Shown here piece by piece: positions 31,318-64,000 of a stretch of 64,000 nucleotides of DNA. Position numbers and translations under genes: made by a program. How positions within the stretch are numbered: the first letter of the stretch is position 1; the number at the start of each line of letters is the position of its first letter. Origin of the DNA: a virus; IMG/VR virus record IMGVR_UViG_3300043436_002834, positions 20,843 to 84,842 of that record; one strand, 5' to 3'. The notes beneath the pieces were generated by a model that did not search any database, was not told where the DNA came from, and saw nothing but the letters and a program-made list of their open reading frames with translations.

Positions 31318-34300
31318 ATGGCAAAGAAATCACCAGCAGGAGGCAATACATTTAAGTCTCGTGGAACTTTTGATAAGTCACTTGTAACTGATACAAGTGA
31401 TTTTCATTTACCGGAGAATTCATGGACATATGCAAGAAATGCTATTAACAATACAAGAAAAGGAGATTTAGGTAAACTTAGTACTGAGCCGGCTAATGCT
31501 TTATGTACTTTTGCACCCTACACAATTATTGGAGCAATTCATATTGAACAAGATCAATGGTTGTTGTTTTCTACTAATAATACAGATTCTGAAATTGGTA
31601 TTTTTAAAGAAGGTAGTTGCTCCTACAGCACAGTTGTAAATGATCCTTGTCTTAATTTTAATACAGATAATCTTATTAAGGGGATTATAAGACCAACATT
31701 TAATTGTTCTTTTAATGCTTACTGGGATGACGGCAGAAATGTTTCAAGAGTACTGGATATTAAAAATGTTCCATGGAAACAAGTATGTACAACCACAAAT
31801 GGCTGCACTACATGCGTTGACACAACAGATCTTGATTGTGATAAGATAAGACTTGAGTCTTTCATAGAAACACCTTGTATTCAAATAAAAAAAGGTAAAG
31901 GTATTGGTAGCATACTTAATGGCACTTACCAAGCGCAGATTGCTTATTTAGTAGATCAGCAACGAGTAACTGACTACTTTATCCCTTCTAATGCATTAAC
32001 TTTATTTGATCATACAAATGTTAATAGCTCAATAGAATTAAATCTTAGCAACCTAGATACAAACTTTGAAGATTATGAGTTGGTATTGATATCTACAATT
32101 AATGAAAAGACTGTAGCTAGAAAGATGGGTATTTATAGTACCCGTCAAACTCAAATATCTTTTGATTACATTGATATTACTTTACCGGTAGTTCCTTTAG
32201 CAGATCTTACTATTATTACTCCGGTTCCAGATAAATCAGAAGCCATGTTTACTGTAGGAAGCTATGCATTGCGTGTAGGTCCTACAACTAAATTTGACTT
32301 TAATTACCAACCACTTGCTAATCAGATTTCAACTCTTTGGCAGTGTGTAGAATACAAAAAAGAGTATTATAAAAATGGGGGAACTAACATTGGATATATG
32401 CGAGATGAGGTCTACTCATTTTTTATCCGATGGGTGTATAACACTGGAGACAAATCTAAAAGTTACCACATTCCAGGAAGAGCAGCTGAACAATTTTATT
32501 TGACAAATGATGCGGGAGCTAATGCAGGTTTAATATCTGAAACAGCAATTTGTCCTGCAACAGTCAATGACATAGAAAGTCCTGACTATACTCCTAAAGT
32601 ATTTGAAGTTTACAATACAGCTACTATATCATCTACACCAAATACAGTATTGGCTGATGGCGGGGTTTTAGTGGCAGAAGGTAAAATGGGTTATTGGGAA
32701 TCTGTTGAGAACTATGATGACAATAATCCTATTGTTTGGAACTCAAATGTACCTGGTCATCCAGAATGGAATCTTTGCGGGCAGCCTATTAGACATCATA
32801 AATTTCCAGAGAATACTATTATTTCCGGGGGAGCCATAGATACTATTACCAATCACTATGTTGATGGTGGTGAAAAAATTAGAATCATGGGTGTTGCTTT
32901 TGATAATATTCAGCCTCCTGTAGATAATAATGGCAACCCAATTACTAATATTGTTGGGTATGAAATTCTAAGAGGAAATAGAACAGGTACTAAAAGTGTA
33001 TTGTATAAAGGTATTATCAATAACATGTTTGAATATAATGCTCCTGATTTAATTACAGGCAAAACAGCATTGTATGCTAACTATCCATTTAATGATTTAA
33101 GACCGGATCCATTTATTTCTTCTAATGCTTTACCGACTAGTTATGAACCACTTCAAGGTGGTTTAATTAACTATACACCTAATGCAGATTATAGCAAGAA
33201 ACATTTTACATTTCATTCACCAGATACAATGTTTGCAAGACCATTTTTGGTTGATGATGAAGTAAAAGTATATGGTACCTCTTATGGCACATCTAATGGT
33301 TATTATATTGAACCTGATAATCATCCAAGACATAAATTTATAACTGATATTTCTTTTGCTACATCAATTATTGTGGGTGTAGGATTTGCCATTTCTAAAA
33401 TGGTAGGTAGTAGAGATACTAAGTATGTAGGTTATCAAATAGACAGCGATCAAATATTTGCAGGAACATCTACATCACCGGGTAACGTAGTGCCTGCTGG
33501 TGCGGCTTTAACTGCAGCACAAGCTACCGCTCTAAACACATTAGGTATTCAAGGAATGACAGATGCATTTACCGGTCAGAATACCGGTTTAGCTTCTGCT
33601 ACAAGCGGTGCACAAAATGGCGCCATAGCTGCTTCTAAAGTTGCTGCGTCAATTCCTGCAACAGGTATAACATCAGGTTATGTTGAGATCTCACTTAAAG
33701 ATCAAGATGCAACACCAGGTATTTTAAAGACGGCCTTGTTGGCTTTAGGAAACCCTATGTTCCAATCATATTTAGCTGATGGTACAGATACAACTATTAA
33801 GTTAATTCAATCATTAGGATCTTGGAGACAGTATGCTGTGCAGTATCAGTCACTCTGTAGATATGAAAATTTTGCGGGTCCTGCAGCTAAAAATAGAAGA
33901 AGAAGAGTTAATGATGCAAGGTATTTAAATCCAGGTGTACAAGATTACTCAACTAACTTTATAGTAAATCACATTAACAGGAATGAAACTGTAATGTTTG
34001 ATACTACTGTAGATATTGAGAATGTACCTTCTGCTTATGCTGATGTATCCCGTCCTCCGCGTATTTCTCAATTACCAGGAGGAGCTGAGTTTAATACAAT
34101 TAACAGAAGAGCATCTTCTCACTATGTAGCTTTAAAAACAAGATTGCGTAACCAATATGGTCAATTGCAATCTATCAGACAAGTGATGGTTTCTTCTTGT
34201 GTGACTCCAATAACATACACTAAGTCACCTACTTTATTTGGAGGAGACATTTATATTGGAAAGTATTCAGAAAAAAACACTTTATACTATTTCCAACAGT

Positions 34301-45952: not shown

Positions 45953-48900
45953 ATGTCAGAAATTAAAAAACCAGTAGAAATTGAAGATAAATTACAATCA
46001 ATTTCTAATAAAGTTAATGCAGAAACATTACCAAAAATTACCAATGCTTATAATGCAGGTAGAGCTCAGGACTTTTCTGCAAAGCAAGCTAATCTTGCTA
46101 AGTACGCGTCATATGGTTCTCAAACATTTGGTAAGCTAGGATTTGATCCATATAAATCATCTAATACTGCAGGTAAAAGCGGAATGGATGAGTTGTATGA
46201 TACTAAAACAAGCTGGACTTCTGACATTGGTCGTGCATTTACAGGTATGCAAAAACTTGCAGGTATTGGTATACAAGATACTTTTGCCTTAGGTGCTTTT
46301 GCTGATCAAGGAAACTATTTGACTTTTGAAGATACAATGAATAAGTATTCTTCAACTAGAGGTGGTGTAACTGGATTTGTAGCTAACACAATGACATCTG
46401 CAGGATATACAGTTGGTATCATTGCGGGTATTGCTGCTGAAGAAATGGCATTAGCTGGTATTACAGCATTATCTGGAGGTACGGCTGCACCGGGTACAAT
46501 TGCTGCAGGCGGAACATTATTGGCTAGAGGAGTTGGTAAACTTAAAGAAGCCGGAAGTATGCTTAAAGCTGTAAACAAATTGCAAGATTTAAATACAGCT
46601 AAAAGTTTTATGGGTGCCACCGGTAAGTTTGTTGGAGGTAGTTTAAAAAGTTTTGGTAAAGCTTTAAATCCATTAGAAAATACTTATGATTTTTTAAAAA
46701 CAATTGATAAGCTTGAAGACTTTAATGGTTTAAGACAAACAGCAATTGGAGCTGGAGCTATAGTTAGAGATGCTAGAAAGATTACTATGGCGCATAGTGA
46801 ATCAAAACTAGAAGCTGATCTTGCTGCTAAAGAATTTAAGCAACAAATGTTTGATGACTATTATTTAGATAAAGCAAACATTGGTACAACTATACCTGAT
46901 TCATATTTAGATACTATTGAAAATGAGGCGCAAAAGGTTAAAGACCGCGTGTACTCATCTAACTTTGGCTTAATCTATGCAACCAATGCAATTACCTTTG
47001 ATAACATGTTTAAAAACATGAAAGGTACTAACCGTTGGGCAGGTATTGCTAATGATGCATATAGAGTAAGTAGAAAAGAAGGTACAAAAGTAGCAGTTGA
47101 TGCATTAGCTAAAACATTTGGTAATGCCGTAAGAAAAAAGCTAAGCACCATTACATTAAAAAGTGCTATGAATAGCGCTCTTTCTAGTTCAATGGAAGGT
47201 GTACAAGAGCTTGGTCAAGATATGATCTCAGAATCAATGAAATCATATCATGCGCGAAATGTTAAAGGAACTCAAGTCCGTGGAGGTATGTTAGAATATC
47301 TTCACAATGATTTATCTAAAGCGGCTTCTAAACAGTACAGTGAAGAGGGAGCAATTACTTTTCTTTCTGGAGCATTAATGGGTGTATTTGCTTCACCTGC
47401 AGGATTTGCTGTAGGGCAAGTTAATAATTTTGTAGCTGGAGGCGGTGCTCAAAAAACTTATCAAAGAGTATTTGATAACAAAAAATGGCAAGCAGAAAAA
47501 ACATCTTTAGAAATTAAGCGCAAAGAAAAAACTAAAGTATTAACTGAGTTTTTTAATAATAGCAAAAATTTTATTGATGGTTTTTCTAAACCTATATATA
47601 CTCTAAATGAATTGCAGGAAAATATGCTGCAAGCTGCAGAAAATAAAAATAGCATGCAGTTTAAAAATGGTCAACATGATTCATTTGTAACTGGAGTACA
47701 TACTTTATTAGAAGCTGGTTTAGAAAATGAATTTGCGGAACACTTAGAGTACATGGCTAAAAACTTTGGTGCTCAAGAACTAAATGAAGTATTTGGTAGA
47801 ACTGATATAACTGAAGAAACAAAAGCAGAGTATCAGGAAAAATTACAAACGCAGGCCAGTAATGTAAAACAATTGCGTGCTAAGTATAATGAAATTCAAG
47901 AAACTGTAATTAATCCACATAAAATGAAAGGTGTTAAAACCACCGATCCTGATTATTTGGAAAAATTTATTAAGTATACTTCTGTAGAAAATCTTAAAAG
48001 AGAATTACTTTTTTCTGATTCTAAAATAGCAGATCGCGCTAATAGAATTAAAGCTCTTGAAAAAGATATTAATGAAAGCAATCCTTTATCATCTTTAGAA
48101 ATAAATGCTTTACTAAATTCTGATGCTTTACAACAACAGATAGGTTTATTACAAGCTGAAGTAGAAGCAAATAAAACATTAACATTAACTGGAGCGGGTA
48201 AAGAAAGTGCTAATAAAGCTCAAGCTAAATTAGATGCTTTTAAAGCATATCAAGAAAAGTTAAAAGCATTTACAACAGAACAACAAAAAGCTGAGGGTTC
48301 TATTTATGAATCAGATGCTTATGAAGATTTATTTGAGGCTTACAATAACTTAATGCAGACATATGGCAAGAATACATTGTCTAACCAAGATGCACAGTTA
48401 CAAGCTAATAAAAAACAGTTTGATAAAGTATTTGATTACATTTCACTAGGTGAAGAAAATAAAATTTATCAAGAGTTTGTAGATACTTTATTAAATCCTT
48501 CTGGAGCAAGCGCGTATCTTAAAGGGCAAGAAGATTTGCTTAAACGATTAGATGACAATAAAGCAGAGCACATTGAAAATGCATTAAAAGCTTTTGAAGA
48601 AAAATCAACAGCTGATGATATGCTTAATGCTTTATATGCAGAAGGTTTATTTTTTGATCTTAATGAGTTGGATGATTTGATTAAAAACCGAATGATGCCT
48701 TCTCAAATTTATGATATTGCTGACAACAATAAAGAGGCTACTCCAGAACAAGTAAAAATTGCACAACAGATAATTAATAAATTTATTGTCCGTCTAACAG
48801 GTAAATCAATTGTTAATGATAAGACTACTTTAAACAAACAAGGGCGTAAATTAAAATCTGATAAAAGAACTGTAGCAGGTATCTTGCGTCAGTATGGAAT

Positions 48901-51900
48901 CACCCTTAATAAGGAGATCAAACTTTCTTCTAAAGCTGGCCAAAGATTCTTAGACAAGTTAATGGCTAAGGAAAACAAATACCTTACTAGACTTGATAGA
49001 GAAATTCTTGCTAAGCTTGGTGATCAGGATGTAACAATTAAGTTTATTACAGATGGAACTCTTCCAGTACAAATGGATGAAAACGGAGTTCTCTTAATGG
49101 ATTTAAGATTTGCAGGTAGAGATTATACTAATTCAGTCATGTCAATAGAAAACATGATTGTGACTGGTTTAACTCAAAATAAAATTGCTGAGGAATTAAG
49201 AAATAATGATAACCTTTGGTTGGCTGCAAGGAATGCAATGGAACAAGCTAAAAGCGCATTTCAAGCTACTTTCCCGGCACAAAACATTGATGAGGTAGAA
49301 ATCTTTGATGATCCTGTTTTGTTTCTTACAGAAGCAATGAATGACATTCAGTTTCAAAAGTTCCTTGCTCAAATAGAAGACAACATTCAACCTGCATCCA
49401 AATCTTTGTGGAGTACCCTTATGACGGGTATCAAAGAAATTGTAAGTGAAGAGTTTGACAAAAGACTTATTAATCGCGTTATTAATATATCAGCTAAAGC
49501 TTTAGATAGCAAGATTGTAGATAACATTGCTGAAGAAGAAACTGATACTAAAGTAACAGAAGCAGAAAAAACAGAAGCTAGAGCAGAAAAGTTTGATGAA
49601 CTTACTAGTTTAGCCAAAGAACTTGCATTACGCTGGAATGTAAATGTTAAAATTCTTAACTCTCAAAAAGAAGCTGAAGACATTTTAAACAAAATCCAAA
49701 ACCCATTTTTTCAAAAGTTTAATACTATTCTTGGTGATTTATTATATGGACCAACAGGACCGGGTATTATTAATTTAAGAAAAGGTGTTGCTGACGTAGC
49801 TCTTTCTGATTTGTTGAAATCAGTCTATGAAAAATCAGAATCATTATCTGAGTTAATTCAAAATTTAAAAGAACTATCAGTTTATCAAACTAACGGTAAA
49901 GTTGGTGAAATGGTTAACTGGTTAATTGATAATGCAGATAATATTGGTGATGGTATTGAGATTGTAAAAAACATATTCTTTCAAGCAGAAGGTCAAACAA
50001 CTGCAGGATTTTATGATGAGAAAACAAATACCGCATATATAGTTGCAGATGCTGTAAAAGCAAATACTCTATATCATGAAATGTTTTTGCATCCATTTTT
50101 AATTAACTTAGAAAAAACTAATCCCGCTTTTTATAAAAGACTGGTTGATGAAGCTAAGCAAAATGCAGAAGCAGTAGCATATGTTGAAGCCAATTATGGT
50201 CCTGTAGATCAAATTGGTGTCAGACAATATGAACACGAACTTGTTGGTAGAGTCTATGATCAATTTGTCAATAATGAACTTAATCAGGCAGAAAACCAAG
50301 GTTTATTAAAAACACTAGGGCAATTTATTAAGCGCATGTTTGCTAGTGTTGCTGAATACTTTGGCATTGCTAAAACTGACATTAAAAGATTTAATGAAAA
50401 GAAAACAACTATTGCTGATCTTGCTAAAGTATCTGTAAGAGAAAAAAGCAAGGTTGATTTAGGAGCTGTTATTGAAGCAGATAGTGTAATATCTGGTACC
50501 CCTGCAGCTAAACCTAAAACAAAAACAACTACTCGCCAAAGAGTTATTACTAAACAGCAATTAGTAAATACAGGGGGGAATGTTGTTATGCTAGATAACG
50601 CATCTGATAATCCAGAATTATTTGCTGATTTTTTACATCCAGAAATAGTATCAACAGATAGAGTTGCTACAGAAGAATGGACTAATAAAATAGTTAGTTT
50701 AGGTCAAGAATTAGATCAAGCTTCAGATGTTGATATACAATATGGTTCTATTAGAGCACAAGTAGATGGAAGATTAATAATTGATGTTATTGCTAATGTA
50801 AATGGCAAGACTGTTAAATTTTTAATGTATAAATCTACAGGCAAAGGAACTACTCTTAATACAAAAGGTGAGTGGGTTCCTTTATTAGCTATAGGAACAT
50901 TACCTGGTGGAGCAGAATGGTTTGTAAAAAGTTTATATAAAGGAACTGATCCAAAAATTAATAAATATGGCAGCGAAACTTTTTTATCAATTAATAATGA
51001 TTTAAAAGCTAAAGAGTCTGAATTATTTACTGAACCTGAAAATTGGGTTAATCAAGAAGTTGAAGAAACTATTACAGAAGAAGTTGAAGAAGTAGAAGAA
51101 CCGGTAACCAGAGAAGAAAAAGAAGTTCTTAATGATGCTAAAAATATTCAATCTAGAATTGCTACAATTGAAAAAGAACTGGATGTTTTAAATAAACAAC
51201 TGGCTGATAATTCTTTATCTTTTGTACAAAAGCGTTCTACTAGAACTAAAGTTACTCAATTATCTATTGAGCTTAATGAGCTATATGATAAATTAAATGA
51301 TATTCAACCGGAGTTAGATGCTATTAAAGCAGCTGAAGTTGTTGAAGATCTTGATGCAGAATATATCCCTAAGCTTGATTACAATGATAATGAAATCATT
51401 ACCCATCAAACTCCATGGCCATCTGTTCCTAAAGATCTAAGAGAAGCACTTGCTATTGTTTATGGTAAGCCATTAACTAAATTAAACAATGAAGATGTAG
51501 CGGAGATTAGAAAGGAAATGAAATCTAATCCAAAATACATTAAAGTAATTAATGATTTTAGTGAAAACCGATTAAGAGAACAGGATCTGGTCAAAGGTCA
51601 ACAAGAGCTGGCTGAAAATCAAAAAAGAGTTGAAGCCAATAAAGCTGCGAGACAACAGCAAATTGCTGAGCAAAAAGAAGCAGACCGTCAAAGAAAAAAG
51701 CAAAAAGTAAAAATTCAAGCCCCTGTATCAGATGAGAATTTTTTAAAGAACTTACTACCTGATTTTGATTATTCTATTCTTACTGAGAAAGAAATTAAAA
51801 TGCTTGTCAAAAAGTTTAAAGACAATAGCGATATAGTTCCTTTTACTGTTAATGACATCATTAGTTTTGTTGTAAACAAACAAGCTAAAGAGGATGCTAA

Positions 51901-53746
51901 AAAGCAAAGAAAGCAATTACTTGATGATATTGATAAGCAAAGAGCTCAAAGACTTATTGATCAACAAATTGAAAGCAATTTTAATTTATTAGCTACTAGA
52001 AAATTATCTATTAAGCAAGGTAAAAAATTATTGACTTTAAGAATAACACCAGGAATGTTTAGGTTCATAACAACTTATCATCCGGAAATTTTTAAAGAAG
52101 ATAAGTCTAGTTTTATTGAATCTGTATATTTAATTCTTCAGACTCGCAAAAATGAAAAGGCTAAGCTAAAATTAAACCCAATAGAATTTAAACCTAAGGG
52201 TATTAATTTTCAATTAACTGCAATGGTTAATAAGCTAGAAAAAGAAAAGCATTTATATCCGGAGGTTGTTTATCAAATTAACCTGGCCTTATATAAAGCT
52301 GGCAGTAATTTGCGGGTTAGAGCTATAAGAAAAGGTAAGCCTGCTGCATTGTCTACCATGTATACTATTGGTAAAAAATATGCTAATGAAAAAAGATCTG
52401 TACTAAAAGCTAAACCTTCTGTTTATTCAGGTAAAAAAAGAGCAATCCTTGAAGTAAATGAAGGCATGTTGAGTCCTAAGATGATGATGCAAGTTTATCT
52501 TTTACAACAATTTATCTTAGGGGCTAAAATTAGTAAAGAGGCTGTGTTAAATGCATTAGGTTCTAATAATATTACCGAAGCAGATAATTGGGTTGGAATT
52601 ACAGAAGATGAAGCAGATCGTGCTAGAAGAACAGGTGATAGCTCTTCAATTGATTTACTTGCAGATTTCACCAGTGAGCGTGGAGATTTATTTGAAAGAA
52701 CTAATGATGTAGCTGATGCACTTCAAGAGTTTCTTAGAAACTATGATAACATAGCTGATGCTGTTGAAAAAATCTATGATGATATTCAAAAGGCTAAAAA
52801 AACATTTGCTGAAGAATCTTTTGATGATGCAAGTGAAGATGTTCAAAATGAGTTGATGTTCCTACAGGATTTGCAGATTGCAGGAATGACGCGTGATGAA
52901 GCTGTAGATAATTTAAATGTTTTAAAGTATTTAAATACACCGGAAGGTCAAGAGATGCTTGACAAAGAAGCAGCAGCATTGGCAGCATACTATGATTCAG
53001 TTCAAGCAGAAATCATTAATGACACATTTGAAGGTAATCCTGAAGAATTATCTGATGAAGATGGAGAACTATATAATTCTAGTCAAAAAGATTATGATCC
53101 AGAAGATGCTGAAGCTGCCAATGATATGGCAAATCAAGAGGATGAATTTTTTGCAGAGTTTGGTCAAGATCCTAATGCAGATTTCTTTGAAGGAATTGAA
53201 AAGGTAGAGAAAGAAGAAACTCAAATAGACAAGGAATTACAAATCATTTATGACAATGGTCGTCAGGCTTTAAATGGTTTTAAATATATTGGAACATTAC
53301 AAGATGCTTTAAACCAATCTAAAAGAGGAGATTTAAATTTTGCAATAGCTGTTTATAAATATAAACCAAGTGCTGCATCTAAAATCTTAGAAGCTCAATT
53401 TAGAACTGGTGTATTTACAGATAAAAATATTGTTGTAAATGGTAAAGCTTATCGTGTTGCAGGTTATCAGCAGAACATGATATATCTACAAGACTTAGTT
53501 TCACTTGATCAAATAAAAATTGGTCTAGATGACTTGATGAATAGTGTTACAGAAGTACTTGAGCCAGGGTCTAAATTTAATGCAACAAACATAGATTCAG
53601 TTGTAAATGTCGCAGAATTTGATTATATTAAAGGGGCATATGATGAAATTTTAAATAACTTTACCTCTTTCATGGGAGAGGCAAATGCGTTGTCTGAAGA
53701 AGATCTCATGGCAGATTTAAACAAGGAAATAACAAAATGTAAATAG
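45953..53746 (+). CDS. Giant internal virion protein with zincin-like motif (2597 aa)
   Basis: A 2597-residue protein. The N-terminus has LAKYASYGSQTFGKLGF and a hydrophobic Gly/Ala-rich section (about 138-190) that could insert in a membrane, as in channel-forming ejection proteins. Long coiled coils cover about 500-900. In the middle, at 1375-1380, lies HEMFLHPF, where histidines flank an acidic residue as in zinc peptidases, but with one extra residue compared with HExxH; a possible third ligand is in YEHELVGR about 60 residues on. The C-terminal part is acidic and helical. It is one base upstream of the virion RNA polymerase gene and ends with TAG. Likely ejected with the DNA, possibly carrying proteolytic ability. 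Confidence 0.7.
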   Translation: MSEIKKPVEIEDKLQSISNKVNAETLPKITNAYNAGRAQDFSAKQANLAKYASYGSQTFGKLGFDPYKSSNTAGKSGMDELYDTKTSWTSDIGRAFTGMQKLAGIGIQDTFALGAFADQGNYLTFEDTMNKYSSTRGGVTGFVANTMTSAGYTVGIIAGIAAEEMALAGITALSGGTAAPGTIAAGGTLLARGVGKLKEAGSMLKAVNKLQDLNTAKSFMGATGKFVGGSLKSFGKALNPLENTYDFLKTIDKLEDFNGLRQTAIGAGAIVRDARKITMAHSESKLEADLAAKEFKQQMFDDYYLDKANIGTTIPDSYLDTIENEAQKVKDRVYSSNFGLIYATNAITFDNMFKNMKGTNRWAGIANDAYRVSRKEGTKVAVDALAKTFGNAVRKKLSTITLKSAMNSALSSSMEGVQELGQDMISESMKSYHARNVKGTQVRGGMLEYLHNDLSKAASKQYSEEGAITFLSGALMGVFASPAGFAVGQVNNFVAGGGAQKTYQRVFDNKKWQAEKTSLEIKRKEKTKVLTEFFNNSKNFIDGFSKPIYTLNELQENMLQAAENKNSMQFKNGQHDSFVTGVHTLLEAGLENEFAEHLEYMAKNFGAQELNEVFGRTDITEETKAEYQEKLQTQASNVKQLRAKYNEIQETVINPHKMKGVKTTDPDYLEKFIKYTSVENLKRELLFSDSKIADRANRIKALEKDINESNPLSSLEINALLNSDALQQQIGLLQAEVEANKTLTLTGAGKESANKAQAKLDAFKAYQEKLKAFTTEQQKAEGSIYESDAYEDLFEAYNNLMQTYGKNTLSNQDAQLQANKKQFDKVFDYISLGEENKIYQEFVDTLLNPSGASAYLKGQEDLLKRLDDNKAEHIENALKAFEEKSTADDMLNALYAEGLFFDLNELDDLIKNRMMPSQIYDIADNNKEATPEQVKIAQQIINKFIVRLTGKSIVNDKTTLNKQGRKLKSDKRTVAGILRQYGITLNKEIKLSSKAGQRFLDKLMAKENKYLTRLDREILAKLGDQDVTIKFITDGTLPVQMDENGVLLMDLRFAGRDYTNSVMSIENMIVTGLTQNKIAEELRNNDNLWLAARNAMEQAKSAFQATFPAQNIDEVEIFDDPVLFLTEAMNDIQFQKFLAQIEDNIQPASKSLWSTLMTGIKEIVSEEFDKRLINRVINISAKALDSKIVDNIAEEETDTKVTEAEKTEARAEKFDELTSLAKELALRWNVNVKILNSQKEAEDILNKIQNPFFQKFNTILGDLLYGPTGPGIINLRKGVADVALSDLLKSVYEKSESLSELIQNLKELSVYQTNGKVGEMVNWLIDNADNIGDGIEIVKNIFFQAEGQTTAGFYDEKTNTAYIVADAVKANTLYHEMFLHPFLINLEKTNPAFYKRLVDEAKQNAEAVAYVEANYGPVDQIGVRQYEHELVGRVYDQFVNNELNQAENQGLLKTLGQFIKRMFASVAEYFGIAKTDIKRFNEKKTTIADLAKVSVREKSKVDLGAVIEADSVISGTPAAKPKTKTTTRQRVITKQQLVNTGGNVVMLDNASDNPELFADFLHPEIVSTDRVATEEWTNKIVSLGQELDQASDVDIQYGSIRAQVDGRLIIDVIANVNGKTVKFLMYKSTGKGTTLNTKGEWVPLLAIGTLPGGAEWFVKSLYKGTDPKINKYGSETFLSINNDLKAKESELFTEPENWVNQEVEETITEEVEEVEEPVTREEKEVLNDAKNIQSRIATIEKELDVLNKQLADNSLSFVQKRSTRTKVTQLSIELNELYDKLNDIQPELDAIKAAEVVEDLDAEYIPKLDYNDNEIITHQTPWPSVPKDLREALAIVYGKPLTKLNNEDVAEIRKEMKSNPKYIKVINDFSENRLREQDLVKGQQELAENQKRVEANKAARQQQIAEQKEADRQRKKQKVKIQAPVSDENFLKNLLPDFDYSILTEKEIKMLVKKFKDNSDIVPFTVNDIISFVVNKQAKEDAKKQRKQLLDDIDKQRAQRLIDQQIESNFNLLATRKLSIKQGKKLLTLRITPGMFRFITTYHPEIFKEDKSSFIESVYLILQTRKNEKAKLKLNPIEFKPKGINFQLTAMVNKLEKEKHLYPEVVYQINLALYKAGSNLRVRAIRKGKPAALSTMYTIGKKYANEKRSVLKAKPSVYSGKKRAILEVNEGMLSPKMMMQVYLLQQFILGAKISKEAVLNALGSNNITEADNWVGITEDEADRARRTGDSSSIDLLADFTSERGDLFERTNDVADALQEFLRNYDNIADAVEKIYDDIQKAKKTFAEESFDDASEDVQNELMFLQDLQIAGMTRDEAVDNLNVLKYLNTPEGQEMLDKEAAALAAYYDSVQAEIINDTFEGNPEELSDEDGELYNSSQKDYDPEDAEAANDMANQEDEFFAEFGQDPNADFFEGIEKVEKEETQIDKELQIIYDNGRQALNGFKYIGTLQDALNQSKRGDLNFAIAVYKYKPSAASKILEAQFRTGVFTDKNIVVNGKAYRVAGYQQNMIYLQDLVSLDQIKIGLDDLMNSVTEVLEPGSKFNATNIDSVVNVAEFDYIKGAYDEILNNFTSFMGEANALSEEDLMADLNKEITKCK

Positions 53747-53747
53747 G

Positions 53748-56700
53748 ATGAATATTTGTATTACACCAAACTCAATAAAGTTATTTGGATCATATATAAG
53801 CAGAAAATTACCAGAATATTTATCACAAGAAAAATCAGCTGAAGCATTATTGACAGATTTGTTCAATGATGCTTTAACTGTTTTTAGTGATAATGGTTTA
53901 AGCAATGACCGAAATAAAGAATTAGTCCTACAACATTTGAGCATTGTTCCTCAAATTGTTTTAAAGTATATTGCGGATAATCCAAAGATGGGTACTCCTG
54001 CATCTTTTGAAAAGTTTAAAGAATTATCTCAAGATGTAGTAACCGCAACTGAAGATACATCTAAGGATACCTTTCAGGCTTTAATAGATCGCTTTGGAGA
54101 CATTATTGGTAACACATCTATACAAGTAGAAGAGGGCAATCCATTAGATCGCTTTGAGGCAGTTTCTTTTGAGTTAATGAAAACCAGTAACCAAGAAGCT
54201 ATTTACAATCCACTATTGGGTTACTCAGAAAATATAACAGATCCTAAAAAGGTATTTGAATTTACAGTTGCTAGAAATGTTATTAAAAATGACAACAAAC
54301 TAAATCTTAGTTTTAGATTAACAACTTTGGGTGAGGTTATTAACAATTCAAAAGTTGTTAATACTACAGGAAGTGAAGATCCCAACTTGCCAATTTTGTT
54401 ATTAGTAGATTCTAAAAATGAAATTGCTTCTTTTGATGAAGCTGGTAATTTGGTTACAGATGGTAAAATTCCAGTGTATACCATTAAAACAGATAAGGTT
54501 TCTTTAGACTACCAAGTCAAAATGCTTACTGTACAAGAAATGGCTTATGACTCTAGCCTTTCTCAAAAAGAAGCAGCTGTAAAAGCACAGCAACAAGTAG
54601 ATCAATTTTTAGCATATATCAATGAGTCTCTTGCCAAAGTTAAAGCGGGTGATCAAGTTTATATGCGTATTGATTTAGATAAAAGTAATTTAGGCTTTAT
54701 TGCTCAGGATAGAAATAAAACAACAAATCTAACTGATATTACTAATATCAATGATGGAGCAACTGTTTTAGAACAAGGAGGAACTAACCTTCAATTTTAC
54801 CCAGTTATTGCTGTAGCCAATACTAACAAGACATTTAGAGTTTATGAAAAACCTTTGTCTTCATTAACCGATGAAGAATTTGAAACACTTCATTACTTAA
54901 TTTCACAAGATGAACTTAAAATTAAAGGTTATACCGCGGCTAATGCAAATGCATCAGGTGTGCGAGAAGCCTTTATGAATTTTTATATTGATAGTTATAA
55001 CAAGGGTCAATATAAAGACAGAAGCTTTTACTATTATGTTGAAGAATCAGTTGATGAAAAAGGTAAAAAAACAAAGACAAGAATGGTTAGATTGGGTAAC
55101 AATGAACCTATTCTTGCATCTACATTAACTTTAGCTCAACTTAAAGAATTTGCTAATCTTAGATTTTCCAAACCGGTTTCTGCTAAGGATTTAAATGCAA
55201 ATGCAACTAAACCTAAAGCTTCTATAAATGATGTTACCAATTTAGGTGAATACTTTTATGGTGAAGACGGTCAAGTATATGAAATGGTTGGACCAAGAAG
55301 ATCTTTTACAAACAAAAAAGATGCTTCAATGGATACTGTTATTTATAAAGTACCTGCAAGAATTGAAGATGGTCAACTTATTACAGGCGCTAGAACTACT
55401 ATTGGTGATCATGTTATCCAAGTAGGATATACAAACCTTGTTCCTACAGCTGAAGGCAAATTACAAGGGTTTGGTTCTTATTTAGGTTTTGCTCCAAGTG
55501 TGGTGGCATCTAATATAAAACCTAAGAGAGATATTAAATGGCGTAGTGTATCTGAAAGAAACCTGGCCACAGTGGCTTCAGATAAACAAAATGAAGCAGC
55601 ATTAGAATGGTGGAATAAAAGTCCACTAAGCAAGGTTATTACATTAAATAACATGCAAAATAAAGCAGCTGAGTTTGGACCAAACTTTGTTGCTAACTTT
55701 ATTGGTAATGCTATTAATCTTTATCAGGGATCTTCATCCAGTGATGTTTATCATGAGGCATTCCATGCTTTCTATGATGGTATTTTAACTCCTTCAGAGC
55801 GCAAAGAAATTTATGATACTTTAAGAGCAACTCCTGGTTATTTTACTACAGTAGTAAATGGTCAATCTAAATTGCTTTCTTATTCAGATGCTACTGATTT
55901 AGAACTAGAAGAATTTTTAGCTGAAGGTTTTAGAGAGTACGCGTTGTCTAATGGCAAGAAAACTAAATTTAGTGACAATAAGATTAAAGCATTCTTTCAA
56001 AAATTACTTAATCTTTTAAAGTCTGTATTTGGTAACATGACATATGCAGAGGCTAAAGCATTTAACAAAACAAATGCGATGGTTGATGTAATCTTTTCTG
56101 ATTTGTTTAAAGGAAACTTTACATCAGATATGTTTGTAGCATCTAATGAAGAAGCCAAATGGCGTTCATCAGAAGTAGAAACAACATCTGGTGATACTTT
56201 TACTTTAGAAGAAATGTATGATGCCATGACAAGTATGAAATCTGTATTTTCAGATTTTATTACTCAGGGTCTAAACTTTTCTCAAAACCAAAAGGATCAA
56301 GAACAAGCAGTTAGTTTGTTATTTGAAATGGCAGATTATGCTGAGTCATCTGATGAATATAAACAATTAGCAAATGATTTAAAACTACTTGATGAAAAAG
56401 GTAGTTCAGTTAGAACAGGTCAAGGTGTGTTTAACATTGCCGCTAATCCGCGCTTATTAAGTTTAGCTGTTGATTATGTCAAAGCTAGATTTGAACAAAG
56501 GCTCAATGATGTAAACAATAAACTTGAGTCTATTTCTAAAATTGAAGATAAAAATGCACAACAAAGAAGTGAAAGCACTGCGTTGGTATTTCAAAAACAA
56601 CTTTTAGAAAAAATACTAAACCCTGAAAATTTTGGCAAGCTATCTGATTTAAACAAAACAGCTAGATTAAAAGGTGAAGAGCAGATACCAAAATCTTTAA

Positions 56701-59700
56701 TTGAAAACTTCTTAAAAAATTACAGCGACTTGGTTTTGAAAAAAACTGAGTATGAAGATTTTTATGATGTCAAAGCAACTGAAGAAGAAAACTATGTTCC
56801 TTTGTGGGACCGCTCCGGCAATGAGCAATTATTTGATGAATTAATTGATGGGCAAACATTAAGCATTCTTGGTTCTATTCAGCAATATACTGAACAAGGA
56901 AAAGGTGTGCCACAACTAAATGGATTAGGCTTTAAGAAAATTATGCCTACCAAAAATGCAATTGCTAAAGTAGCAAAACTTTTACGCAATACCCCAGATG
57001 CAATGGACATGAGTGCTAAACTCAAGGATGCTGCAAAAACCGATAAAGAAATTGATCAATTACTAAGAAGATTAGGTGATATTTCACAACTGGATTTTAC
57101 TGATAATATTACTGTTGCTGAACATAGACAATGGACCGGATTCTGGGAATCATTTAATAAAGCAGATGTTTTACTCCGTGAATTTATTTTAGAAAAAGAA
57201 ATAGATGAAACTGATCCGGATAATCCTGTTGTTACTTTAATATCTAAATCAGGTAAGTCTTCTTCTATGAGTTTGCAAGTTACCCGCAAGTGGGCAGCTA
57301 ATTTCAAATTCTTGTTGACGGAAAGCCCTTATGCTGATGAGTTAGGTGGTGTGCCTGTATTTAATTTGGAAAATCTTTATCTTGATTTTAACAGAGCTGA
57401 CTCATTAACTTATGCCAAAATACAAGGACCTGGGCCAAATAATATTACTTCTAAAAATGATCCTAAAAAATCTAAAAATGCGGAGTATACTTTATTTGCT
57501 AAAGTAGAAGCTATTGCTAAACCATTTGAGTTTTTAAAAGCTCTTGGTATAGATATGGTAGAAGATGAGGATGTTAGAAAAATTTTATTTAGAGGTGATT
57601 CTGAATTAGGTATAAGTGCTGCCATTACTGAGTATATTAATAATTCCATCAAAAATAGAATGACCAAAGCTGTTTGGGATTCTGAACTTGAAAGATGGGT
57701 AGTAGATACCAATGGTAAGTTTATTGGCAACTTAGATCAGTTATTTAGAAAATTCAACTACTTTGATGAAAACAATAAAGTTGTAGAACAACAAGATCTT
57801 TCTGGCTTCTTAACTCAATTAAGAGAACTGCAATATATTTATTCTAATGACTATACCAACTTCTCTAGCTTTAATGCTAATGGTGATTTGGTTAGTGAGA
57901 AATCATTAAACTCAAGTCTTTTAGTAACTGTATCAGAAATAAATAAGGCAGCAACACTTGAAGATTTCCTAAAGATTAAAGGTATGGAGCATTTAGATCC
58001 ATATACTAATCCGCAGGCGGCATCATCTAAATGGCTCATTGACATGTTCCAATTAGATCCTTCTGTGCATGCGCCTACTAAAAGAGGTAAGAGAGATTAC
58101 GGTATTAAAATTTCAGTAGAGGCTTTATCGGGATCCAAGCTTATTCAAAAATATAAAGGTATCTCAGAAAAAGAAGATGACACAACTGGTGAAATCTATG
58201 ATGAGCCTATTAGCTGGGAAACTGACCGTGGTATTGAGTCCATGGGTTCAGATATTAAAACTAAATTCATTAGTGATTTCCATTTAACTTTAGAAGGCAA
58301 GCAGGAGATCATGCGATCTGAAGCTAAATCTACTTCATTAACGGTGTTTGCTCCATCAAGAAAAGGATCAGAAACTAGAAAAGGTTCTAACTTACTAGTG
58401 GATAAAGGTGAGGTTCAATCAATTTTTTCTGAAGGATATAAAGGTAAAATTCTTTACAATGAATTTAAAAATCACATAGCTGCAGAAATTATCCGCATTC
58501 AAAAAATCCGTAAGATTAAAGAAATGTTGTTGTCTGGAGAAATCAATCCTTCAGAAATTGCAATTGATGTTAAACAACTTAATCGCGGAGAAGATTGGTT
58601 TGTATTTGATAAAATATTTAATCCTGAGTTAAAAAGTAAACTTGAATCTATTTCATTAGATGGTATTCTAGGAGATAAAGGATTTACTATTGATGCTTTA
58701 TCAACTCCATTAAAAACTGAAATTGAAAATGCTCTTGTAGAGTACTTTAGAAATGAAGCTGCTTTACTGATGAATGAGTTTGCTAATAAGATTGTTATTT
58801 CTGATAACCTTTACAAAGATTACACTAATCAAGATGAATCAATTGAATCAGTAAATGATAAGTTATTTAGAACTTTTGTAATTAATAACTTTATTCAAAA
58901 CCTTAATTACGGTTCATTATTTATTGGTGATTCTTCTGTCTTTAATGTAGAAGGTGAAGATTTTCATAAACGTATTGCTGGATTAATTTCTACTGGTAAA
59001 ATATTTAGACATGATGATGCATGGTTAAAGTTTTTAAACTCTGAAAAATTTAATGCAAAAGGATTTGCTAAAAAGCATAATACAGAAAAGGGAATTACTG
59101 CTGATTACTCATATTCAGGATATTTAAATACAGCTATTATCAAAGAAGCTAAATCTAATTCAGTATATGCGGATCATTATCGCAAAATGCTAGGCTTAGA
59201 TAGCAATAAATATGAAACTGAAGGTGGGGCAATTGAAGAAGCGGATGCTCAAGGTTGGGTTTCATTTGATACTTATCGCTTATTAAATATTTCAATTAAT
59301 GAGTGGTCTGATGCACAAGAAAATTTGTATCAAAAAATGCTATCTGGTGAAAAAATCTTGAAAAAAGATTTAGTTACTACATTCCCTGCTAGAAAGTTTC
59401 AATACTATGGCCAGGTAAATAATCCACAAACACAAGAACTATTGGGTACATTAGGTTTGTCATTAAACAACATGGCATTTCATAAGTACTCTTTAGTACC
59501 ATTAGTTCCTCAATTAATTGAAGGCACTCACTTGCAAACTTTGCATGAAAAAATGATGGAGCAAGGTATTGATTATGTTACAATGCAAACCGGTTCTAAA
59601 CTTTCAACTCTTTCTAAAGTAAAAGTGAACAAAGACACTAAGACTTTTGAAGCTGATGTTGATAATTTCTATGATGCAAAAACTAGAACAGTAACTGAAG

Positions 59701-62700
59701 ATCCGGACTTTAAGTTTACGCCTAATGTTATTCACATTAAGTTTTTAAAGAGTCAGATCTTTTTAGATGAAGGCTTTAAAGGACACATATCTTTACCTAC
59801 ACAGCTTCGTAAGATTGCTACCATTGGTATTATGGATGGCGGTGTACCTACAGATTTTGTTTATACTGGCAAGAAAAATATTAAAGAAGCATGGGAAGCC
59901 CTATCTCCAAAACAAAAGTTAGAGAAATCAGCTAAATGGAGATGGTTGCAAAACTTTAATAACACTCTTGATAAAATGCAAGAGGTATTAAAGAATCAAC
60001 TATTAGAAGACATAGAGTTAAAAGAAACTATAGTTGATGGCAAAGTTGTTGGATATAGCGGGGATTCATCTAAACTAAAACAGTATCTCCAAGACAAGTT
60101 AAGAAACAAAGAAATCCTACCTTCTGAAATTGAATTTATTGCCAAACCAGATGGTACTCTTATTGATGACTTATCGCTTTCTATGATTAGTGAAAAGTTA
60201 GAAGAGTTGCTTGTTGCTTTAGTAGATAAAACTTTAAGAAGGATATCTGTTAATGGAGAAGCTTTAGTGCAGGTTTCCGGTACCATGTATGAAACATCTC
60301 TTAAAAAAGCTACTAGAGAAGAAGGTTTAAAGTATGGCTCCAACGGTCTCAAGTTTTATTATTTAAAAGATGAGAATGGTAATGAAGCAGTAAGTCCGGA
60401 TGGTCAAAAGTATGTACAAGCTATGGAAGTTAAAGTAGCTTTACAAGGTGACTTTAAGAAACTTTTTTATACTACACATCCTGATGGTAATTCAGTAGCG
60501 GTTTACTTTAAAACTGAAGAAGGTAAAAATGAATTAGATTATGATGCATCACTTAAAAGGTTAAATGAAGCCATTAAGGACACAAAATGGTTAGATCAAT
60601 ATTCTGATTACATTTCTATTCCAGGAGTTCGTATTCCTACACAGGGACCAAATGCATTAACCAGTGCAACAATTGCTGAATTTTTACCTGAATGGGCAGG
60701 ACCTATTATTGTTTTGCCTACAGAGATTACTTCACAAACCGGATCTGACTTTGACATTGATAAGTTATTTAACATGTTTAAAAATCTTATCAACTTAAAT
60801 GGTAAGGTTGAACAAGTTGTTTATGATCCATCTGTAACTGAATCTTATGATGAACTGCGTGCTCAGATTATTCCTATAGATGAAAAGATTAAAGCCACAA
60901 GCGAAAAGCTTAGCCAAGCTTGGGCTGTGTATACAGATTACTTAGAGAATAAAACTCAGGTCAATGCAGATATTGAAAGTTCTTTTGAAGCTATTGCGGT
61001 TATTCAAGATGAAATTGATCAGAAGTACAGTCAGAAAAAAGAGGTAGCTGAAAATAAGGCGTATCCAAAAGAATTACAAAGATCTGTTCATGCAGAGCTT
61101 CAATCTGAAATTGATGCTTTAAATTCCTCTATTAATTATTTGCGTTCTGACATTCAGAATAAATTAACTGCATTTTTTGACAAAGAGATTCTTAATAAGG
61201 AGGATCGCAAACAAGCTGTTGGGCAAAAGTATGAAGAGTACATGGCAGATATTTCAGCAATAGAAGCTGAATTAAACCAATACAATGAAGAAAAAGCATC
61301 AGTTGAAAGAAAGATAGCAGGTAAAGGTGTAAAGGGTCTAGAAAACAAATTATTTGATTTGTTATCAGAAAGAGTTTTAATGCCGGATAATCTATTGTTA
61401 TTGGTTACACCTAACACAACAGATAGTGTAGAACCTTTAGCAAGAGCTGCAGGTAAACAAATTAAAAAGTCATATAACAAATTAAGCAATAAGAAAAATT
61501 CATCTTCTGCTTCAGATAAAATTGCTAAGACTTCTATTTTTGAATATCGCTATAACTTGTTAAAGCACCAAGAAAACTCTGTTGGTAAAGATTCATTAGG
61601 TATTGCTGCTATTTCATCTACTTTTTATGCAATATTTACAACCTTTGGTGCCACTTTGCAAGCTACCTCAGCTGAAGACCAAGCCAAGTTTGAAAACGCT
61701 CTTAAAGTTCTTCAAAATGAGTCATTAGTAAACAGTCCCGCATATCTCCGTGCTCTTAAAACTATTGACAACTTTAAGAACAAGAAGCTAAATTTCATTA
61801 CAGATGATGGCAAAATAGGTTATAATCTTAATGAAAAAGATAATGCCGTTGCTTTAGGTATTATGAAAAATGCTGATGGACAACAAGTATCTGATATTAT
61901 TTCTCAACTTATTAATGGTTATGTGGATGTAGCTAAGGATGCTTGGATTTTTGAAGCTCAGGGTACTAAAGAAAATAGCCCTATTCTTTTGTTCATGGTT
62001 ATGGCAGGTATAAGTACATCTTCTGTAATTAATATGGTAAACAATCCATTAGTATTAGAATACAATGAACTTAAAAAAGAAAATGAAGGTGTATTTGCTA
62101 AAGCTAATAAAGTTGCTGAAGGGATTACTGATCCTAACAAAGAAGGTACAGCTTTAGATTTTCTTTATGAAAAATACAAAGGTTTATTTTCATCAAAGAA
62201 TCCAGAAAATAAAACTAAAACTACTCTGTTCAATATAGATAGAATTGCTAATGCAGCTGATCCATTCAGTCCCACAGAACTTGAATCAAGATTAGGTAGT
62301 GAACCAACATTTAGGGATGTTGAAATTCTTTCTCATTATGTGCAGATTGAAAACATGGCTAATGCACTTACTGCATTTACAATGTTATCTAAGTTTGACA
62401 CTAATAAAATCTCTAATATTACCGAGGCTCAAAAAAGGATTGAAGATATTGCTGAGTTTAAACTTACTGCAATAGAAGATAAAATTATTCCGGATTATTG
62501 GTTTGATGCATTACTTGATACACCAATTGGTAAATTCAATAATGATGAGTTTATTGTTAATTTGTTTTCTAAATACTTTAAGATTAAGAATAACAGGGCT
62601 CTTGTCCTTAGATCTTTAGGTATTAAAACTCCAAAAGGATCTGATCCAAGAAAAGTACTTACAGAATTTAAGAATGACTTTATGTGGTTCTTATATCAAA

Positions 62701-64000
62701 ATGCCGCATATAACCGTAAATCTTATACTACATCTCCAAGTAAATATTATGAGGATGGTTCTGCGCTTCCGGGTAAAACTTATATTTTAGAACAAGATGT
62801 AAATTTACCACAAGGAAAAGGCATGGAAGTTAATGAAGAAACAGGTGTGGTAAAATACCATCCTAAAGCCATGATCTTAGATATCAATATGGCAGAGTTT
62901 CTTTATTCATCTAAATTCTTTAATGCAGCTCAACCAAAAGAATGGGTAACTTTTAGACTAGAGTATGACAATTTAAAAGCTGCCTCTGAGGAACTTTCAG
63001 ATAATGAATTTAAAGAAAAGTTCTATCAATTTGATAATCCAAATAATTCTTTCTTGGACTATGGATCTGTCACAGGCCGCAATATTATTTTACAAAGAGC
63101 TGCACTCTACCATACAAATAATGTAAATGCTTTATTTGATTTATCTGTAGGAGTAGGTAACATCTTGCGTAATTTTTCTGCTAAGTATCCAGGGCTTAAT
63201 CAGTATGCTTTTTTCAGAGATGTTAATTATGATTTTAGTGACTCTCTTAAAAAAATGAACATTTACTTTCCACAGATTAAAGATGCTCAGATGGCGGCTG
63301 TGTATAAAGAAAATGTTGAGGAGTTAAAAAATTATCCTGAAAGAGAAGTTGCTGAATTCTTTGGAAAGCTTTCTCACATCGGTATTATGCAAACTGGTAT
63401 GAACCGTACATCTAAATATGATTTTGCTAAAATACTTGATCAAAACTTATTTAATGAAGTTATTGAAAATGAAATAGGCTTACCTTACATTAATGATGTT
63501 CTTCAGGAATTAGAAAAAAGCTTTGCTGTTCGTGAAGGTAAAAAAGATGGACAAATTGTTGATCAGTTTAAAGAGATCTTTGTTGAGAAGATTAAAAACA
63601 ATGGTCTGCGCACTAAGGTCCGTGGTACTAGCTATCTTGTTGATGAGCTACGCTTCTCTAAAGAAAAGTCTTTAAAAGAATCTAAGATTGCTCAAAACAA
63701 GATTACTATTATTCCGGTTAATAAAACAGCAGCAGCCGGTCAAGAACTATTGACAGCGGCTATGTTCTATAATAATCCTAACATTACCCCGCTTGAGTTT
63801 GCTAATTCTATTAGAACTTTGAACTGGTCAATTAAAAATGAAAAATTAGTTGCTCCTGAAGGAAAAAGTCAAAAGGAATTAGATAAAGCTTTATTAGTAT
63901 TAGGTATTGATAACTCTCAAGAGCTACCTTCATTAAAGTATAAATCTAAAAACTTAAAAGAAGGTTTCTTATCTATTGGTGAATCTGAAATTCAAAAAGC
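53748..64000 (+). CDS. Virion RNA polymerase, giant, C-terminus cut by window
   Basis: An open frame runs from ATG 53748 to the end of the window (3417 codons, no stop), so the true protein is longer. Residues 669-673 (HEAFH) form a canonical HExxH zinc-peptidase motif. Residues 2334-2338 are DFDID within TGSDFDIDKL, the three-aspartate metal site known from the crAss-like virion RNA polymerase, preceded by FLPEWAGPIIVLPTEI. A segment about 430 residues earlier, HKYSLVPLVPQLIEG...GIDYVTMQTGSK, resembles the family's beta-like half. The enzyme is expected to be packaged, ejected into the cell and to transcribe early genes. The N-terminal 600 and later regions are unassigned. Gene follows the preceding stop by one base. 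Confidence 0.85.
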   Translation, partial: MNICITPNSIKLFGSYISRKLPEYLSQEKSAEALLTDLFNDALTVFSDNGLSNDRNKELVLQHLSIVPQIVLKYIADNPKMGTPASFEKFKELSQDVVTATEDTSKDTFQALIDRFGDIIGNTSIQVEEGNPLDRFEAVSFELMKTSNQEAIYNPLLGYSENITDPKKVFEFTVARNVIKNDNKLNLSFRLTTLGEVINNSKVVNTTGSEDPNLPILLLVDSKNEIASFDEAGNLVTDGKIPVYTIKTDKVSLDYQVKMLTVQEMAYDSSLSQKEAAVKAQQQVDQFLAYINESLAKVKAGDQVYMRIDLDKSNLGFIAQDRNKTTNLTDITNINDGATVLEQGGTNLQFYPVIAVANTNKTFRVYEKPLSSLTDEEFETLHYLISQDELKIKGYTAANANASGVREAFMNFYIDSYNKGQYKDRSFYYYVEESVDEKGKKTKTRMVRLGNNEPILASTLTLAQLKEFANLRFSKPVSAKDLNANATKPKASINDVTNLGEYFYGEDGQVYEMVGPRRSFTNKKDASMDTVIYKVPARIEDGQLITGARTTIGDHVIQVGYTNLVPTAEGKLQGFGSYLGFAPSVVASNIKPKRDIKWRSVSERNLATVASDKQNEAALEWWNKSPLSKVITLNNMQNKAAEFGPNFVANFIGNAINLYQGSSSSDVYHEAFHAFYDGILTPSERKEIYDTLRATPGYFTTVVNGQSKLLSYSDATDLELEEFLAEGFREYALSNGKKTKFSDNKIKAFFQKLLNLLKSVFGNMTYAEAKAFNKTNAMVDVIFSDLFKGNFTSDMFVASNEEAKWRSSEVETTSGDTFTLEEMYDAMTSMKSVFSDFITQGLNFSQNQKDQEQAVSLLFEMADYAESSDEYKQLANDLKLLDEKGSSVRTGQGVFNIAANPRLLSLAVDYVKARFEQRLNDVNNKLESISKIEDKNAQQRSESTALVFQKQLLEKILNPENFGKLSDLNKTARLKGEEQIPKSLIENFLKNYSDLVLKKTEYEDFYDVKATEEENYVPLWDRSGNEQLFDELIDGQTLSILGSIQQYTEQGKGVPQLNGLGFKKIMPTKNAIAKVAKLLRNTPDAMDMSAKLKDAAKTDKEIDQLLRRLGDISQLDFTDNITVAEHRQWTGFWESFNKADVLLREFILEKEIDETDPDNPVVTLISKSGKSSSMSLQVTRKWAANFKFLLTESPYADELGGVPVFNLENLYLDFNRADSLTYAKIQGPGPNNITSKNDPKKSKNAEYTLFAKVEAIAKPFEFLKALGIDMVEDEDVRKILFRGDSELGISAAITEYINNSIKNRMTKAVWDSELERWVVDTNGKFIGNLDQLFRKFNYFDENNKVVEQQDLSGFLTQLRELQYIYSNDYTNFSSFNANGDLVSEKSLNSSLLVTVSEINKAATLEDFLKIKGMEHLDPYTNPQAASSKWLIDMFQLDPSVHAPTKRGKRDYGIKISVEALSGSKLIQKYKGISEKEDDTTGEIYDEPISWETDRGIESMGSDIKTKFISDFHLTLEGKQEIMRSEAKSTSLTVFAPSRKGSETRKGSNLLVDKGEVQSIFSEGYKGKILYNEFKNHIAAEIIRIQKIRKIKEMLLSGEINPSEIAIDVKQLNRGEDWFVFDKIFNPELKSKLESISLDGILGDKGFTIDALSTPLKTEIENALVEYFRNEAALLMNEFANKIVISDNLYKDYTNQDESIESVNDKLFRTFVINNFIQNLNYGSLFIGDSSVFNVEGEDFHKRIAGLISTGKIFRHDDAWLKFLNSEKFNAKGFAKKHNTEKGITADYSYSGYLNTAIIKEAKSNSVYADHYRKMLGLDSNKYETEGGAIEEADAQGWVSFDTYRLLNISINEWSDAQENLYQKMLSGEKILKKDLVTTFPARKFQYYGQVNNPQTQELLGTLGLSLNNMAFHKYSLVPLVPQLIEGTHLQTLHEKMMEQGIDYVTMQTGSKLSTLSKVKVNKDTKTFEADVDNFYDAKTRTVTEDPDFKFTPNVIHIKFLKSQIFLDEGFKGHISLPTQLRKIATIGIMDGGVPTDFVYTGKKNIKEAWEALSPKQKLEKSAKWRWLQNFNNTLDKMQEVLKNQLLEDIELKETIVDGKVVGYSGDSSKLKQYLQDKLRNKEILPSEIEFIAKPDGTLIDDLSLSMISEKLEELLVALVDKTLRRISVNGEALVQVSGTMYETSLKKATREEGLKYGSNGLKFYYLKDENGNEAVSPDGQKYVQAMEVKVALQGDFKKLFYTTHPDGNSVAVYFKTEEGKNELDYDASLKRLNEAIKDTKWLDQYSDYISIPGVRIPTQGPNALTSATIAEFLPEWAGPIIVLPTEITSQTGSDFDIDKLFNMFKNLINLNGKVEQVVYDPSVTESYDELRAQIIPIDEKIKATSEKLSQAWAVYTDYLENKTQVNADIESSFEAIAVIQDEIDQKYSQKKEVAENKAYPKELQRSVHAELQSEIDALNSSINYLRSDIQNKLTAFFDKEILNKEDRKQAVGQKYEEYMADISAIEAELNQYNEEKASVERKIAGKGVKGLENKLFDLLSERVLMPDNLLLLVTPNTTDSVEPLARAAGKQIKKSYNKLSNKKNSSSASDKIAKTSIFEYRYNLLKHQENSVGKDSLGIAAISSTFYAIFTTFGATLQATSAEDQAKFENALKVLQNESLVNSPAYLRALKTIDNFKNKKLNFITDDGKIGYNLNEKDNAVALGIMKNADGQQVSDIISQLINGYVDVAKDAWIFEAQGTKENSPILLFMVMAGISTSSVINMVNNPLVLEYNELKKENEGVFAKANKVAEGITDPNKEGTALDFLYEKYKGLFSSKNPENKTKTTLFNIDRIANAADPFSPTELESRLGSEPTFRDVEILSHYVQIENMANALTAFTMLSKFDTNKISNITEAQKRIEDIAEFKLTAIEDKIIPDYWFDALLDTPIGKFNNDEFIVNLFSKYFKIKNNRALVLRSLGIKTPKGSDPRKVLTEFKNDFMWFLYQNAAYNRKSYTTSPSKYYEDGSALPGKTYILEQDVNLPQGKGMEVNEETGVVKYHPKAMILDINMAEFLYSSKFFNAAQPKEWVTFRLEYDNLKAASEELSDNEFKEKFYQFDNPNNSFLDYGSVTGRNIILQRAALYHTNNVNALFDLSVGVGNILRNFSAKYPGLNQYAFFRDVNYDFSDSLKKMNIYFPQIKDAQMAAVYKENVEELKNYPEREVAEFFGKLSHIGIMQTGMNRTSKYDFAKILDQNLFNEVIENEIGLPYINDVLQELEKSFAVREGKKDGQIVDQFKEIFVEKIKNNGLRTKVRGTSYLVDELRFSKEKSLKESKIAQNKITIIPVNKTAAAGQELLTAAMFYNNPNITPLEFANSIRTLNWSIKNEKLVAPEGKSQKELDKALLVLGIDNSQELPSLKYKSKNLKEGFLSIGESEIQK

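Follow-up and report, generated by a model that had tools for sequence, protein, structure and literature searches.

The last gene of the window (the whole 64,000-nucleotide stretch of viral DNA analyzed here) encodes a giant chain that bears both a HEAFH and a DFDID motif. Is this one protein a virion RNA polymerase with a zinc peptidase fused to it, how widespread is such a fusion, and what might a peptidase do on such a chain? A preliminary description had located HEAFH at residues 669–673 and DFDID at residues 2334–2338 of a single chain, and had called the protein a virion RNA polymerase with a fused zincin domain. Both motifs lie exactly there.

A giant chain with two domains

The gene and its parts are as follows.

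53748..63998, + strand: giant virion RNA polymerase gene with N-terminal zincin; ATG start, 3417 aa in the window
55548..56267, + strand (residues ~601–840): predicted gluzincin (MPTase-type) domain, from a conservation block, the A3 and A8 alignments, an AlphaFold model and structural matches
55752..55766, + strand (residues 669–673): HEAFH, predicted zinc-binding/catalytic motif; H669, E670 and H673 invariant in 43 sequences
55911..55925, + strand (residues 722–726): EFLAE, predicted third zinc ligand E722 and second-shell E726; E181/E185 of A8, invariant
56268..56420, + strand (residues 841–891): variable linker; homologous chains split into two genes nearby (~776–892)
56421..62510, + strand (residues 892–2921): polymerase body, homologous to phi14:2 gp66 by profile and PDB matches
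58632..61847, + strand (residues 1629–2700): polymerase catalytic core used for fold comparison; two double-psi barrels by homology
60747..60761, + strand (residues 2334–2338): DFDID catalytic aspartates, invariant in 58 sequences

The open reading frame reaches the end of the window without a stop codon. Because the window covers bases 20843–84842 of an 84,842-base IMG/VR record, this end is also the end of the contig, and the gene is cut there. A second locus, L006 (IMGVR_UViG_3300042569_002972), overlaps the polymerase gene over 7640 bases with 9 mismatches (99.9% identity) and a single residue change (T1824A). It supplies the 3′ end whose assembly the preliminary description had proposed as a check, completes the chain at 3945 aa, and continues with another giant gene of 2012 aa. 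The notion that the missing end lay at the other end of the window's contig was discarded, as L006 had supplied it. The 1000 or more residues claimed beyond the catalytic site are indeed present, with 1079 following DFDID in the window and 1607 in the completed chain; complete relatives measure 4113, 4054 and 4189 aa. The chain had also been thought larger than the crAss-like virion polymerase characterized so far. This is correct with respect to phi14:2 gp66 (2180 aa), which has been studied experimentally, but not with respect to public fused chains of 4328–4946 aa. According to a review, crAss-like polymerase proteins reach up to ~6000 aa (PMC10136315).

The C-terminal part of the completed chain (residues ~3370–3945; L006 7501–9222) contains a Rossmann-like stretch (VWIFGSTITERAYL...GTASGIDTMA). 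It resembles DprA/SLOG proteins, and one Suoliviridae homologue is annotated ‘DprA-like’; this stretch had no Pfam match.

Neither motif is a chance occurrence, because both are conserved in every relative found. Within the window chain, HExxH occurs exactly once, as HEAFH (0.016 expected by composition), and DxDxD once, as DFDID (0.9 expected for DxDxD and 0.003 for the exact string DFDID). As a single sequence, the giant protein gave nothing meaningful in Pfam and PHROGs scans and only noise in phmmer against the PDB. The crystal structure of phi14:2 gp66 (6VR4) was also missed by a four-sequence polymerase profile, and the match appeared only with a profile of 58 sequences. With this core profile (A7), 6vr4_A is the only significant PDB match (E 6.3e-65), and the DFDID aspartates (D706, D708 and D710 of A7) do not vary. 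A profile of the fused chains matches gp66 residues 79–1248 and 1315–1777 of 2180 (E 1.9e-33 and 9.8e-39), beginning at window residue 892.

The preliminary description had staked its reading on a polymerase fold in structure prediction. The AlphaFold model of residues 1629–2700 (pLDDT 84.9, pTM 0.83) retrieves 6vr4_A with Foldseek (E 2.9e-23), and in VIA it superposes on 6VR4 with a Z of 20.8 over 666 residues and an rmsd of 3.6. The next VIA matches, in the Z 10–16 range, are the two-barrel RNA polymerases QDE-1 (Z 15.8) and RDR2. Profile and predicted fold both match gp66, which identifies the DFDID part as a virion-type RNA polymerase of the crAss-like kind, with double-psi barrels. It is not a T7-like single-subunit polymerase domain of the N4 type.

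The genomic setting is that of Crassvirales, with the polymerase gene in a transcription block behind portal, capsid and tail genes. Upstream of it lie TerL, portal, major head and virion structural PHROG matches, and the relatives of the window TerL are Fpv phages and crAss-like phages. A 1639-aa protein (window 31318–36237) has a PHROG virion structural match and stands in the position of the crassvirus muzzle protein.

Sequence pattern and model make the HEAFH part a separate gluzincin domain whose active-site signature is intact, in agreement with the fused zincin domain first proposed. Residues H669, E670, H673, Y689, E722 and E726 are invariant in 43 nonredundant sequences (A8), many of which share merely 19–30% identity with the window. 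The common pattern is [D]xYHEA[FW]H...Y...(E)ExLAExFR. By analogy with gluzincins, zinc would be held by H669, H673 and E722, with E670 acting as the base. Conservation in this block is close to that of the polymerase core and among the highest in the chain; on either side lie a poorly conserved N-terminal stretch (321–600) and a gappy linker (841–880).

In the AlphaFold model, which has a pLDDT of about 70–85 in the core and a mean of 58 over the whole piece, the HExxH and ExxAE motifs fall on successive helices (126–139 and 177–193) behind a small sheet. The predicted arrangement is that of gluzincins: a zincin fold in which HExxH occupies one helix and the following conserved helix contributes a glutamate. 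VIA ranks zinc peptidases at the top for this model (Z 5–7), namely M34-type domains, PPEP-3 (Z 6.8), IrrE/PprI (6.9) and ArdC (5.2); nearly all structural neighbors are HExxH...E zinc peptidases. This modeled likeness is one of fold only. Foldseek returned no hit with E below 0.001 for the zincin model, and the fold claim therefore draws mainly on the motif pattern and the VIA ranking. A Pfam scan of 27 zincin members matched no zinc-peptidase family with a meaningful score. Taking all of this together with the polymerase match, we regard the identity of both domains as next to certain.

Distribution of the fusion and the recurrent gene break

The fusion is standard in a large group of environmental relatives. 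Zincin and polymerase motifs share one ORF in all IMG/VR relatives whose DNA covers both, and the order zincin, linker, polymerase is fixed in all relatives found. As a guard against bias, a census took loci through the downstream gene rather than through the zincin and required at least 1750 residues before DxDxD; among these nonredundant loci, the zincin is in frame with the polymerase in 15 of 15. A single freak fusion, which we had considered, is rejected by this census. The fused chain is also present, at lengths of 4328–4946 aa, in six Suoliviridae reference genomes (cr4_1, cr1_1, cr10_1, cr50_1, cr113_1 and cr118_1), where the deposited labels read ‘hypothetical protein’, ‘DNA helicase’, ‘exonuclease V’ or ‘DprA-like’.

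Separate forms exist as well. Four phages (crAss001, tikkala, cr128_1 and Dulem virus 41) encode the polymerase in a different gene from the zincin, which sits close to the C-terminus of gp47 or of the corresponding protein; the separate zincin of crAss001 and Dulem 41 has the complete EExMAExFR signature. In ‘Rudgehvirus jaberico’ (NC_091965.1), the gene before the polymerase has HEGIH and the record note ‘ZnMc_tr’. HExxH was not found in phi14:2 gp66 or gp67. Since the zinc peptidase occurs in fused and separate forms across lineages, it is an old component of the crassvirus transcription block. In a midpoint-rooted tree whose root is uncertain, the fused form stands on both sides of the root.

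Where the domains are separate, the gene break of homologues falls just behind the zincin, between window residues 776 and 829–892. The match to crAss001 gp47 ends at window residue 776, and that to gp50 starts at 829. Residues 841–880 have a conservation of 0.23 and 45% gaps.

Several side observations concern the architecture of related chains. One locus (L009) has a P-loop kinase-like domain (AAA_33) inserted at the zincin–polymerase junction, at window residue ~814, and another (L023) has AAA_33 at the C-terminus of the polymerase ORF (E 1.8e-19); DUF7831 lies near the C-terminus in L007, L009 and, weakly, L012. In IMGVR_UViG_3300002835_000050, the ORF starting at base 2 puts two different zincins on one polymerase chain, DVYHEAWH (residue 432) before and LLLHEILH (3060) after the GADFDVD motif (1930). 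In cr108_1 (NC_055878.1, 16401–16692), the polymerase gene is split precisely within the catalytic motif. Its first ORF stops at profile position 2178, which is the first D of DFDID, and the second resumes at 2179 some 290 bases later. This interruption is likely an intron, although the record gives two genes.

Candidate roles of the zincin

The neighboring genes bear on what the domain might act upon, and two further features belong here.

45953..53746, + strand: 2597-aa giant cargo gene lying upstream, with weak similarity to crAss001 gp47
50075..50092, + strand: HEMFLH, an HExxxH variant of a second zincin domain in the upstream protein (A5, hhalign)

A profile of the upstream giant genes matches crAss001 gp47 (E 4e-12), and HExxxH zincins have been described in polyvalent proteins (PMC5512222). 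The downstream giant protein carries HEFSHP. With HEMFLH upstream, HEFSHP downstream and HEAFH between them, a zincin-like domain is therefore found in each of three consecutive cargo genes. A relationship between the zincins of the two flanking proteins is clear from hhalign (99%, E 3.5e-18); a relation of the polymerase zincin to them is doubtful (probability 35%, E 4e-4). In the cyanophage Leptolyngbya phage Lbo-JY46 (PP438436.1, 11954–24860), homologues of both flanking genes adjoin with no polymerase gene between them, and one of them has HELAH and HEFMHP.

Giant RNA polymerases are known cargo of crAss-like phage particles and are injected together with the DNA. That of phi14:2 belongs to the virion, accompanies the DNA into the cell and is responsible for transcribing early genes (PMC7886860); the virion status of phi14:2 gp65–67 is taken from record annotation. 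In crAss001, gp47, gp49 and gp50 were detected in virions by mass spectrometry (PMC10172136). By analogy with these proteins, the window polymerase likely behaves in the same way: the chain would be packed in the head, be ejected through the tail with the DNA, and then transcribe early genes. The preliminary description had suggested that the peptidase could cut the giant chain or its neighbors. With less certainty, the zincin may be an active protease that acts on the delivered cargo, in cis or in trans, either while particles mature or once the cell has been entered. For cleavage in cis, the variable linker behind the zincin (~776–892) would offer the most exposed site; this region coincides with a gene boundary in related phages and with the start of the active phi14:2 polymerase.

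The role that we tentatively favor, and consider quite possible, is that the zincin processes the delivered cargo; for cleavage in cis, the linker is the leading candidate. Several observations point to it. First, the H, E, H, E and E positions are invariant in 43 sequences, and the signature recurs in crAss001, Dulem 41 and Suoliviridae. Second, the zincin is conserved about as well as the polymerase core, the fusion is standard, and a natural gene break lies just behind the zincin. Third, there are precedents: Iyer et al. 2017 reported that N4-type virion polymerases are always fused to MPTase domains, and phage P1 DdrB, which has such a domain, is processed before packaging (PMC5512222). 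Finally, crAss001 particles contain the sibling chains gp47, gp49 and gp50 (PMC10172136). Iyer et al. proposed either that these domains process polypeptides before packaging, in the head or in the host, or that they cleave host proteins (PMC5512222).

Other observations count against cargo processing. The N4 virion polymerase is reported to be packaged unprocessed, its MPTase domain included (PMC5512222), and the zincin model has a mean pLDDT of 58, nothing significant in Foldseek and a Z of about 7. The role is further bounded by the separate forms. Since the catalytic signature is intact in crAss001 gp47 and Dulem 41, off the polymerase chain, freeing the polymerase cannot be the sole task; since phi14:2 gp66 and gp67 are without HExxH, the polymerase of at least one phage can function without the domain. 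A far more specific version of cargo processing, which we consider unlikely, would make the zincin a conserved maturation protease of crassvirus cargo with the linker of the giant chain as its target, and proteolysis during or after ejection would control when the polymerase is released. On this view, the fused genes would be uncut precursors of the two-gene form of crAss001, and the two zincin-bearing neighbor giants would perhaps be cut as well.

The retention of catalytic residues whether the zincin is fused or separate would suit an injected effector that cleaves host proteins, for instance of defense, transcription or the envelope, soon after entry, with the fusion merely ensuring delivery. 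Related domains of injected polyvalent proteins have been proposed as effectors (PMC5512222). Moreover, the cargo block holds several zincin subtypes, and the accessory domains nearby differ (AAA_33 kinase, DUF7831), which is what one would expect of an arsenal delivered to the host. Effectors aimed at the host, however, usually come and go, whereas every relative found has the YHEA[FW]H zincin, and few segments of the chain are as well conserved; in this it differs from the variable accessory domains. We view a host effector as the main rival, possible but somewhat doubtful.

Finally, the fold might be mainly structural, or a determinant of packaging or ejection, with residual or absent catalysis. 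In N4, encapsidation requires the region that includes the MPTase domain, and the chain is reported to enter the particle uncut (PMC5512222). Yet the five catalytic or ligand positions are invariant in 43 divergent sequences, many of them 19–30% identical to the window, and the same signature is found in crAss001, Dulem 41 and Suoliviridae, which makes a mainly structural role improbable.

Significance and comparison with known systems

Crassviruses are the commonest gut viruses, and the present chain bears on how they thread polymerases that weigh several hundred kDa through a narrow tail and have them refold in the host. With a protease at a recurrent break point of the chain, its catalytic residues intact across several families of the order, proteolysis during delivery becomes a concrete, testable idea, to which the zincin-like domains in three consecutive cargo genes add. 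Two unrelated kinds of virion polymerase, the T7-type of N4 and the double-barrel type of crassviruses, are both joined to such proteases.

Parts of this are not new. The polymerase family is already known and its structure solved, and a zincin on a virion polymerase is already known for N4, on an unrelated polymerase family. Whether specialists already recognize a crAss-like virion polymerase with the zinc-peptidase domain of the transcription block is, in our estimation, evenly balanced. NC_091965.1 labels the zincin-bearing gene beside the polymerase ‘ZnMc_tr’, the Suoliviridae genomes with the fused gene are public, and Yutin et al. 2021 display transcription-block domains in their Fig. 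3. The fused genes nevertheless carry the database labels ‘hypothetical protein’, ‘DNA helicase’ or ‘exonuclease V’, and in the texts consulted, figures aside, we found no mention of a zinc peptidase in crAss-like polymerases.

It is useful to compare the window protein with named systems. The N4 virion RNA polymerase (gp50) and other polyvalent MPTase proteins follow the same functional logic, a giant injected polymerase chain with an HExxH...E zincin. However, the N4 polymerase is of the T7 family and not a double-psi-barrel enzyme, and its zincin, of another subtype, is C-terminal to the polymerase; a profile comparison of the window zincin with that of N4 detected no similarity. Flavobacterium phage Fpv20 gp33, a 4419-aa virion protein, has a related polymerase (DYDID) and a zincin, but its zincin is C-terminal, of the LLHEVIH subtype, and weakly similar to that of the N4 virion polymerase. 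As a separate observation, this gene (NC_031912.1, 34468–47727; DYDID at 3240, LLHEVIH at 4197) is an unannotated crAss-like polymerase within a ‘virion structural protein’ of a cultured phage.

Within the crAss-like phages, phi14:2 gp66 (6VR4) has the same double-psi-barrel polymerase, a GSDFDID motif and the same place behind the tail genes. It differs in having 2180 aa without HExxH and in beginning about where the linker of the window protein ends; the zincin of phi14:2, in gp65, is a different subtype (HEIMH). In crAss001 (Steigviridae), the same zincin (C-terminal in gp47) and polymerase (gp50) are present, but as two genes on opposite strands. The Suoliviridae giants have a longer N-terminal part before the zincin (about 1650–2000 aa versus 668 in the window), low identity to the window protein (about 24% in tblastn) and, in some cases, in-frame TAG codons. 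As in the window, however, a HEA[FWY]H...E(E)xxAExFR zincin and a G[SA]DFDxD polymerase are carried in one chain.
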